Shown here: piece after piece, positions 3,547 to 8,263 of the stretch
Layout of the letters: each line of letters opens with the position of its first letter
Position numbering within the stretch: the stretch's first letter is position 1
Assembly: GCF_002934265.1 (NCBI RefSeq)
Contig: NZ_PTIX01000010.1
Location: 62,001 to 126,000 of the forward strand
Length of the DNA stretch: 64,000 nucleotides
DNA from: Actinokineospora auranticolor
Lineage (GTDB): Bacteria > Actinomycetota > Actinomycetes > Mycobacteriales > Pseudonocardiaceae
Direction: 5' to 3'
The notes under the pieces: model-generated
Database searches by the model: none
Seen by the model: the letters and a program-made list of their open reading frames with translations, nothing else
What the model was told of the DNA's origin: nothing
Position numbers and translations under genes: made by a program

Positions 3547-3803
3547 CGGGTGACACGGCCCGCTTTCACCCGATCGGCGGCGGCGTCACCGATAGCGGCG
3601 CACCGGCCACCCCGCTGCGTGTGCACCTGCCCGTGCTGTCCGGTGCCACACCACGCGAATGGGGCTGACCAGCGGTTATGCGGGAACGGATGCGCTGAAC
3701 TGCTTGCGGAGTCACACAAGGTGCCGGGCTGGTCACGGGCCGTTGTCGCTGCTAGCTCTAGGGCAGCCCGAGTACCTCGTTGACCGACCAGAAAGGGCGC
3801 CCC

Positions 3804-4217
3804 TTGAAGAGGACCCCGCTGCCGCGCACCGCGACGGCCGTGCTCGCCGCCGCCGTCTCCGCGCTGCTGATCATCCCTACCGCGACTGCCGCCGAGGCGA
3901 ACCCGATGGACCGGCTGACCGCCATCACCCACGAGCTGACCGACGCCGAGTCGCCGGGCGAGCTGCACCAGGCCCTCGCCGACCTGCCCCCGGTCCTCGA
4001 GGACCTGCGCGGCCTCACCGACAGCCAGGGCGTCCTGCACCTGCTGGTCGACGCCCAGGCGCTCGCGCACTCGGCCGCCTCCGCGCTGTCACCGCAGATC
4101 GCGGCCGCGGCCCTGCCCGGGCTGCTGAACCTCATCCGGCAGCTGATGACCCAGCAGTCCGCGCCCCAGCGCCCGCTGCTCCCCCAGCTCCCCCAGCTGC
4201 CCCTGGCGATCCCGTAG
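3804..4217 (+). CDS. Small secreted protein, unknown function
   Basis: 137 residues from TTG 3804, chosen because AGAAAGGG lies 7 bases upstream at 3790-3797; an in-frame TTG at 3780 would add eight residues but lacks such a site. The N-terminus is a clear Sec signal peptide: basic start (LKRTPLPR), Ala/Val/Leu-rich core and an ATAAEANP cleavage region. The mature part is short and helical, with a region rich in Leu and Asp ([20 protein letters not shown]) and a C-terminal Pro/Leu/Gln tail with repeated PQLPQL. No Cys and no domain recognised. About 260 bp separate it from the UbiA gene, so it is probably transcribed alone. Confidence 0.6.
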
Positions 4218-4564
4218 CCGACACCGGTCGTCGCCGGAGCCCTGACCCCGCCCCGACGACGACCACCCAGGGCCCCGCGACCCCGATGCTCCCGGTCGAC
4301 TCGCGGGCCCACCGCCCCGCTTCCGGCCCCCGGCCCGGGAGCGGGGCACTTTTTCGCCCGGGAGTCCCAGCCCCGCCCGGGGTCGCGCCGCGGGCTCAGG
4401 AAGTCGACCTCCGCGTCGAGGCACGAGCACCTTCGCGATCGCCCCTCCGCCACCTCCCTACCCACCGGGCACCCGAACCGCTCCCGGCAAGCCACTTTCG
4501 AGTGATGCGCCCGGGTGGACTCCGGCGTTTTACTGGGGGGCCATCCGGTAGGCTGGCGTCCGAT
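4218..4564. other. metH leader and upstream intergenic stretch
   Basis: About 350 bp without a gene. It contains several GC-rich inverted segments (two CCCGGG blocks either side of a CTTTTTC run near 4335-4360) that may terminate transcription of the small secreted gene, followed by the presumed metH promoter. No recognisable -10/-35 pair could be fixed by eye. It leads directly into the riboswitch at 4565. Confidence 0.4.
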
Positions 4565-4634
4565 GCCGAGAGGCGCTGCGACGGGCCACGGCGGCCCGCC
4601 ACGCTCGGCTCGCGACGACTTCCAAGGGCGCCTC
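4565..4634 (+). promoter_or_regulatory. S-adenosylhomocysteine (SAH) riboswitch, metH leader
   Basis: The leader RNA matches the SAH riboswitch fold. P1 pairs GCCGAG (4565-4570) with CTCGGC (4604-4609). The conserved core AGGCGCTGCGAC follows P1. P2 pairs GGGCC (4583-4587) with GGCCC (4593-4597). The conserved CCAnGCTCGG segment closes P1. The pseudoknot helix pairs AGGCGC (4571-4576) with GCGCCT (4628-4633). The ribosome binding site GGAGG (4645-4649) and GTG start (4655) are just downstream. SAH riboswitches are known ahead of ahcY, metE and metH, and switch expression on when SAH builds up. The fold and motif are seen directly; the regulatory sense is from family knowledge. Confidence 0.85.
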
Positions 4635-4654
4635 CGGGACAACTGGAGGTGTGC

Positions 4655-8263
<3,609 letters not shown>

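Follow-up and report, generated by a model that had tools for sequence, protein, structure and literature searches.

The evidence supports a genuine element of the S-adenosylhomocysteine (SAH) riboswitch class located directly before metH in Actinokineospora auranticolor, as judged by the score of an independent covariance model, covariation in P1, P2 and P4, the gene context and the anatomy of the output hairpin. The element lies in a 64,000-nt stretch of DNA, here called the window. We consider it very probable that it works as an ON switch, in which the ribosome-binding site would be hidden when SAH is low and freed by SAH through the P4 pseudoknot. For A. auranticolor, SAH as the ligand, the ON direction and translational control are what we infer from comparative sequence analysis. 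The element is one of a broad actinobacterial branch that is under-called by the Rfam cut-off. The locus and its details are new, and the kind of element is already known.

Anatomy of the element

The features of the locus are as follows (coordinates in the window, strand, description and basis).

4549-4554, +, -10-like hexamer TAGGCT; TAnnnT stands at the equivalent place in relatives and would put the transcript start near the start of P1
4562-4640, +, putative SAH riboswitch aptamer; RF01057 match of 36.7 bits, R2 match of 70.5 bits over 4560-4636
4565-4569, +, P1 5' strand, partner 4605-4609; RF01057 alignment and covariation
4570-4576, +, P4 pseudoknot 5' strand GAGGCGC, inside the conserved J1/2 core; covariation
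4573-4579, +, core GCGCTGC; read in the window sequence
4582-4587, +, P2 5' strand, partner 4593-4598; RF01057 alignment and covariation
4593-4598, +, P2 3' strand, partner 4582-4587; RF01057 alignment and covariation
4599-4604, +, J2/1 core CCACGC (Rfam consensus CCAGGC); RF01057 alignment
4599-4608, +, CCACGCTCGG, a conserved element named by the preliminary description; read in the window sequence
4605-4609, +, P1 3' strand, partner 4565-4569; RF01057 alignment and covariation
4628-4634, +, P4 pseudoknot 3' strand GCGCCTC, the inner part of the anti-SD arm; covariation and output-stem analysis
4628-4637, +, anti-SD arm, pairing with 4643-4652 in the predicted unbound state
4643-4652, +, arm with the ribosome-binding site GGAGG (4645-4649); minimum-energy fold and output-stem analysis
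4655-8263, +, metH, cobalamin-dependent methionine synthase, 1202 aa, GTG start; NF007024 1850 bits, TIGR02082 1520 bits

The preliminary description had claimed all helices and the core of a SAH riboswitch, and P1, P2, P4, GCGCTGC and CCACGCTCGG were all located. P1 has five pairs in the window, with mismatches where the Rfam helix has its two outer pairs, and all seven pairs of P4 are formed. The distance to the metH ribosome-binding site, previously given as 20 bp, had to be corrected, as GGAGG at 4645-4649 begins after a gap of 10 nt from the end of P4.

Covariance model searches

A covariance search with the Rfam SAH riboswitch model RF01057, which had been suggested as a check, was run on 4500-4720. 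The model aligned over its full length (positions 1-78) to 4562-4640 with 36.7 bits, corresponding to E = 1.2e-5 over this 221-base region and 1.1e-4 over the whole genome. This score is 0.3 bits below the gathering cut-off of 37 bits, which is a curators' filter and not a structural feature. The default Rfam scan of the window listed no entries because the score falls just under that cut-off. The search of 4500-4720 for other riboswitches gave five Rfam matches at E ≤10, and only RF01057 had E <1.

Since a shortfall of 0.3 bits was too thin a basis for judgement, a second covariance model (R2) was made from 28 sites, selected by their organism names so as to come from other families (Micromonosporaceae, Streptosporangiales, Frankia, Kribbella, Catenulispora and others). 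The training set excludes the window and, judging by names, its family. R2 matched the window element with 70.5 bits (E 1e-13), and the other seven R2 matches in the window all scored 15.3 bits or less. In the whole genome the next best match reached 23 bits, and the metH site is the sole element there. The 28 training sites come from a pattern scan with fixed core letters, so that agreement in these letters accounts for part of the R2 score, which nevertheless far exceeds chance.

Among relatives, RF01057 scored over its cut-off in 8 of 61 genomes, and a site from the same genus scored 39.8 bits. All 33 relative sites from the RF01057 search (L001-L033) matched R2 at E <1e-6, and only nine of them passed the Rfam cut-off, which in its current form thus misses most of the sites examined. 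Three of 11 actinobacterial loci tested passed it. At E ≤10, RF01057 had matches in 57 of the 61 relatives; such weak matches were left unused because they also occur in 9 of 14 control genomes, none of which had a match over the cut-off. The fold energy of the leader gave a z of −1.92. Sequence and fold energy alone are weakly informative, because 10 of 200 shuffles fold equally well.

Covariation in related sites

Pooling of the RF01057 search and the matches listed from the pattern scan gave 150 sites, of which 142 were distinct. Alignment A1 contains 93 of these, as sites with long loops or linkers and aptamers more than 90% alike were left out. Standard pairs in P1, P2 and P4 were formed in 94.5% of its cells and in at most 46.5% once the partner strand was slid. 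Double changes were found in 139 cells, compared with 50.5 in shuffles.

The search pattern fixes most P4 letters in A1, and a second alignment (A3) was therefore made from 42 loci, 33 found via RF01057, eight via a further model (R1) and one (L162) via BLAST. In A3, L027 and L162 are wrongly aligned at their 3' ends, and L028 and L029 are incomplete. Its 41 distinct rows contained 89 cells changed on both sides, against 25.2 when shuffled. P4, which is part of no model used, changed from C-G to U-A in eight distinct rows. This variant, GAGGCGT with GACGCCT, was found in L165-L172 and L030, all from one genus (g29 of family f8) that is probably Mycobacterium. Another variant, GAGAAGCGC with GCGCTTC, occurs at 9 of the 142 sites, in Lentzea and kin, and belongs to one lineage. 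The preliminary description had made its reading depend on covariation of the P1, P2 and pseudoknot pairs in related genomes, and both alignments contain such covariation. RNAalifold, which is unable to draw pseudoknots, preferred for A1 to pair the core with J2/1 in a nested helix rather than to form P4; the three pairs concerned never vary.

The base after GCGCTGC (column 21 of A1) is A in 66 of 87 metH sites and G in 34 of 46 ahcY sites. It is possible that this is a tuning position or a mere lineage effect.

The output hairpin and the proposed switch

The minimum-energy fold contains a helix between 4628-4637 and 4643-4652 that covers GGAGG at 4645-4649. P4 and this anti-SD hairpin are mutually exclusive because both need 4628-4634. 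An output stem (score at least 6) was present at 84 of 87 metH sites (20% of shuffles), 37 of 46 ahcY sites (16%) and all nine other sites (26%). The sites that beat all 50 of their own shuffles numbered 42, 30 and 2, respectively. The metH sites L014, L020 and L024, which represent one sequence type, were without a good output stem.

Because CCTCC and GGAGG pair by nature, the pairs further inward were also tested, with 3 of 87 metH sites and 9 of 46 ahcY sites omitted that had no GGAG in range. At the metH sites the first inward pair was Watson-Crick in 65 of 84 cases, where 35.3 were expected and the maximum in 1000 shuffles was 48. The second was weaker (40 of 83 against 26.8 expected, maximum 39), and the third showed no excess (12 of 61 against 13.9). 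The first inward pair of the ahcY sites stayed within the range of the shuffles (17 of 37 against 11.2, maximum 19).

When the P4 strands were withheld from pairing, the predicted accessibility of the ribosome-binding site rose from 0.01 to 0.42 in metH sites (control 0.02) and from 0.03 to 0.34 in ahcY sites (control 0.03); two metH sites and one ahcY site were omitted from the calculation. The rise exceeded 0.3 at 59 of 85 metH sites, with 26 of the 85 lacking such a rise, and at 21 of 45 ahcY sites. In a crude fold of the window itself, accessibility stayed at 0.0 with the P4 strands withheld, because the linker around CTTCC at 4619-4623 can pair with GGAGG too. This model result counts against a simple switch at the metH locus. 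In a real pseudoknot the same linker would be less free to do so.

In the proposed mechanism, the metH mRNA would begin at or near the aptamer. With little SAH, 4628-4637 would pair with 4643-4652, the ribosome-binding site would be hidden and metH would be off. With SAH bound, P4 (4570-4576 with 4628-4634) would be stabilised and the anti-SD strand withdrawn, so that translation could start and metH would be on. MetH would then consume homocysteine, a product of SAH hydrolysis. SAH riboswitches activate genes; the anatomy seen in relatives agrees with such activation, and the crude fold of the window itself is ambiguous in this respect. A direct methyl-cycle feedback had been proposed earlier for this locus; the anatomy, in which the P4 3' strand is set against the ribosome-binding site, instead predicts an SAH-activated ON switch and thus a feed-forward effect.

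In the ahcY relatives, the P4 3' strand would form one arm of a longer terminator-like hairpin, and the arm often extends outward to AAGGGCGCCTCC...GGAGGTGCCCTT. A long hairpin followed by T-rich sequence, one arm of which consists of the P4 3' strand and its 5' flank, occurs at ahcY sites such as L002, L046, L032 and L117. The hairpin at those sites is likely a SAH-controlled terminator. Five or more T in the nine bases after the hairpin were found at 10 of 46 ahcY sites, which indicates transcription termination in a subset of them.

It is unlikely that, at the window locus, transcription or RNA stability is the main level at which the same SAH aptamer acts, or that the switch runs in the OFF direction. 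Such a role would agree with the ribosome-binding site that remains paired in the crude ON-state fold and with the terminator-like hairpin of the ahcY relatives, to which the P4 3' strand belongs. However, the window hairpin is followed by two T in nine bases and by no T-run, only 1 of 87 metH sites has five or more, and the hairpin covers GGAGG directly.

Distribution and target genes

The preliminary description regarded a SAH riboswitch before an actinobacterial metH as notable. The riboswitch before metH is real, but it is not isolated: R1, a model trained partly on the window's own family, placed the element in at least 123 of 200 family genomes, and Mycobacteriaceae already appear with SAH riboswitches in the accessible part of an earlier paper (PMC3766115). 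R2 placed it in at least 92 of 298 genomes of the order; few candidates per genome were scored in both searches. In the phylum, R1 gave at least 13 of 396 genomes, three of them chance-like by eye. These three candidates (G104, G211 and G277, R1 31-34 bits) were not counted as elements. Scanning GTDB contigs for a pattern of the actinobacterial core yielded at least 120 stretches, 80 of them named. Amycolatopsis, Micromonospora, Actinoplanes, Streptosporangium, Frankia, Kribbella, Nocardia, Catenulispora and Lentzea were among the 80 named stretches listed, and Streptomyces was not among these 80. In the window genome, the stretch read at its own ahcY (L184) contained no element.

The targets of the 142 distinct sites were metH (87), ahcY (46), adenosine deaminase (4), metK (1) and other genes (4), so that 138 sites precede a gene of the SAH/methionine cycle. 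L005 and L006 were assigned to ahcY by eye. In the first 30 loci, metH was directly downstream at 21, ahcY at seven, and metK and a methyltransferase gene at one each. The adenosine deaminases were assigned by family models (L134, L147) or by similarity (L042, L062). Adenosine deaminase seems to be a SAH-cycle target, since SAH hydrolysis yields adenosine alongside homocysteine. A literature search that covered few subscription journals found no paper treating SAH riboswitch and adenosine deaminase together. The four other targets are a class I methyltransferase (L021), a MOSC-domain protein (L116), a frame without assigned identity (L075) and an incomplete gene (L053), whose first codons resemble those of adenosine deaminases and which is probably one.

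At L012 (G036, − strand, riboswitch at about 1505-1580), an aptamer with an anti-SD stem stands before metK (TIGR01034). At L021 and at L078 (Nocardia carnea), the aptamer stands before a class I SAM-dependent methyltransferase gene.

A ligand of the SAH cycle fits these targets, given the predominance of metH and ahcY and the presence of adenosine deaminase. A fold of the same kind whose coordinated core changes shift its specificity to SAM or another adenosyl compound appears improbable. The core letters do depart from the Rfam consensus at J1/2, at J2/1 and just before P4, and the single metK site is unexpected under SAH control, as metK is said not to be controlled by SAH riboswitches in Proteobacteria in the available text of PMC4239095. 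Against such a shift, the core changes are compensatory in P4 and possibly also in the J2/1 contact, 133 of 142 targets are ahcY or metH, and an ON switch before ahcY is sensible for SAH.

The metH gene and its leader

MetH scored over the cut-offs of both NF007024 and TIGR02082, and five Pfam domains were found in it. On the + strand the metH frame stays open from 3659 to 8263 and so reaches about 1 kb upstream of the start; this is an artefact of high GC content and might lead gene callers astray. That the stretch is itself coding sequence, conserved for the protein whose open frame crosses it, can hardly be entertained: the frame is indeed open upstream of GTG 4655, but the core-to-P4 lengths at the 87 metH sites divide 34/30/23 among the three remainders modulo 3, matches to the MetH family models begin at residues 2 and 12 after that GTG, and a -10-like hexamer precedes the core at every metH site.

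A TAnnnT hexamer was found 14-28 bases before the core at 107 of 142 sites; all 87 metH sites have it, compared with only 13 of the 46 ahcY sites. In 105 of those 107 it lies at −22 to −17, where about four would be expected. No full sigma-70 consensus promoter was found upstream of the window element, and a terminator-like hairpin is located upstream at 4314-4347. The -10-like hexamer TAGGCT at 4549-4554 and the upstream hairpin suggest that the riboswitch probably makes up nearly the whole metH leader.

Significance

The find is solid rather than revolutionary, because the element belongs to a widespread actinobacterial branch of a known family. The results indicate that SAH sensing by RNA is a common actinobacterial way to tie the enzymes methionine synthase and SAH hydrolase to the amount of by-product that methylation generates. 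The carriers include genera known for antibiotic production. With a single aptamer, output hairpins of two kinds and targets that include adenosine deaminase, these elements offer a clean comparative system for the sharing of a strand between ligand fold and output.

Comparison with known SAH riboswitches

The window element resembles RF01057 in P1, P2, the layout of J1/2 and J2/1, the position of P4 after the linker and the SAH/methionine-cycle gene context. A P4 pseudoknot between J1/2 and the strand after the linker is a feature of the SAH riboswitch family. The pseudoknot was proposed for RF01057 with Transat, as given in the consulted part of PMC2891591. Most conserved core letters are kept, and the four places that depart from the Rfam consensus do so in coordination and consistently across the actinobacterial branch. 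J1/2 is GAGGCGC instead of GGAGCGC, which is matched by GCGCCUC instead of GCGCUC in the P4 3' strand; J2/1 is CCACGC instead of CCAGGC, and AAGG replaces AACG before P4. The last two changes look like a G-C contact turned into C-G, with columns 50 and 82 of A1 as the proposed partners, and would amount to one lineage-level difference; this flip is read against the Rfam consensus and one proteobacterial sequence, L162. L162 is the ahcY leader of a Burkholderia glumae plasmid, which scores 55.2 bits and carries the Rfam core forms. It was the one place found with the Rfam consensus as a plasmid query, and the leader compared from the 82 records of a tblastn search for ahcY on plasmids. A scan of viral contigs for the element found none.

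We regard it as quite possible, if slightly doubtful, that the actinobacterial elements form a distinct SAH riboswitch subclass with the contact between J2/1 and the base preceding P4 flipped from G-C to C-G, permuted P4 pairs, a dual-use strand and a widened regulon. If so, one strand would serve both as pseudoknot strand and as anti-SD arm (metH) or terminator-like arm (ahcY), and the regulon would have come to include adenosine deaminase, a methyltransferase and, in one case, metK.

The SAM/SAH riboswitch RF01727, described in the part of PMC2864571 consulted as exclusive to Rhodobacterales and located upstream of metK, has a related ligand and was not among the Rfam matches at 4500-4720. 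Our literature search, with few subscription journals covered, found no fuller account of actinobacterial metH or ahcY SAH riboswitches. The accessible portions of PMC5070874 and PMC9232105 mention other riboswitches and no SAH one. SAH riboswitches in Mycobacteriaceae were noted in 2013 (PMC3766115). They share the phylum and the Rfam family with the window element, and the genus that is probably Mycobacterium has the element before metH; the available text of that paper gives no sequence, target or mechanism for these cases.

For Proteobacteria, the accessible sections of the 2014 survey (PMC4239095) describe a core regulon of ahcY and metF, with metH in Comamonadaceae and metK outside SAH riboswitch control. 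The actinobacterial set shares with these regulons ahcY as a core target and, with some of them (Comamonadaceae), metH. It differs from those regulons, as far as that text describes them, in that metF is core in Proteobacteria, whereas metH is the most frequent target in the actinobacterial set, which also includes adenosine deaminase and one metK.
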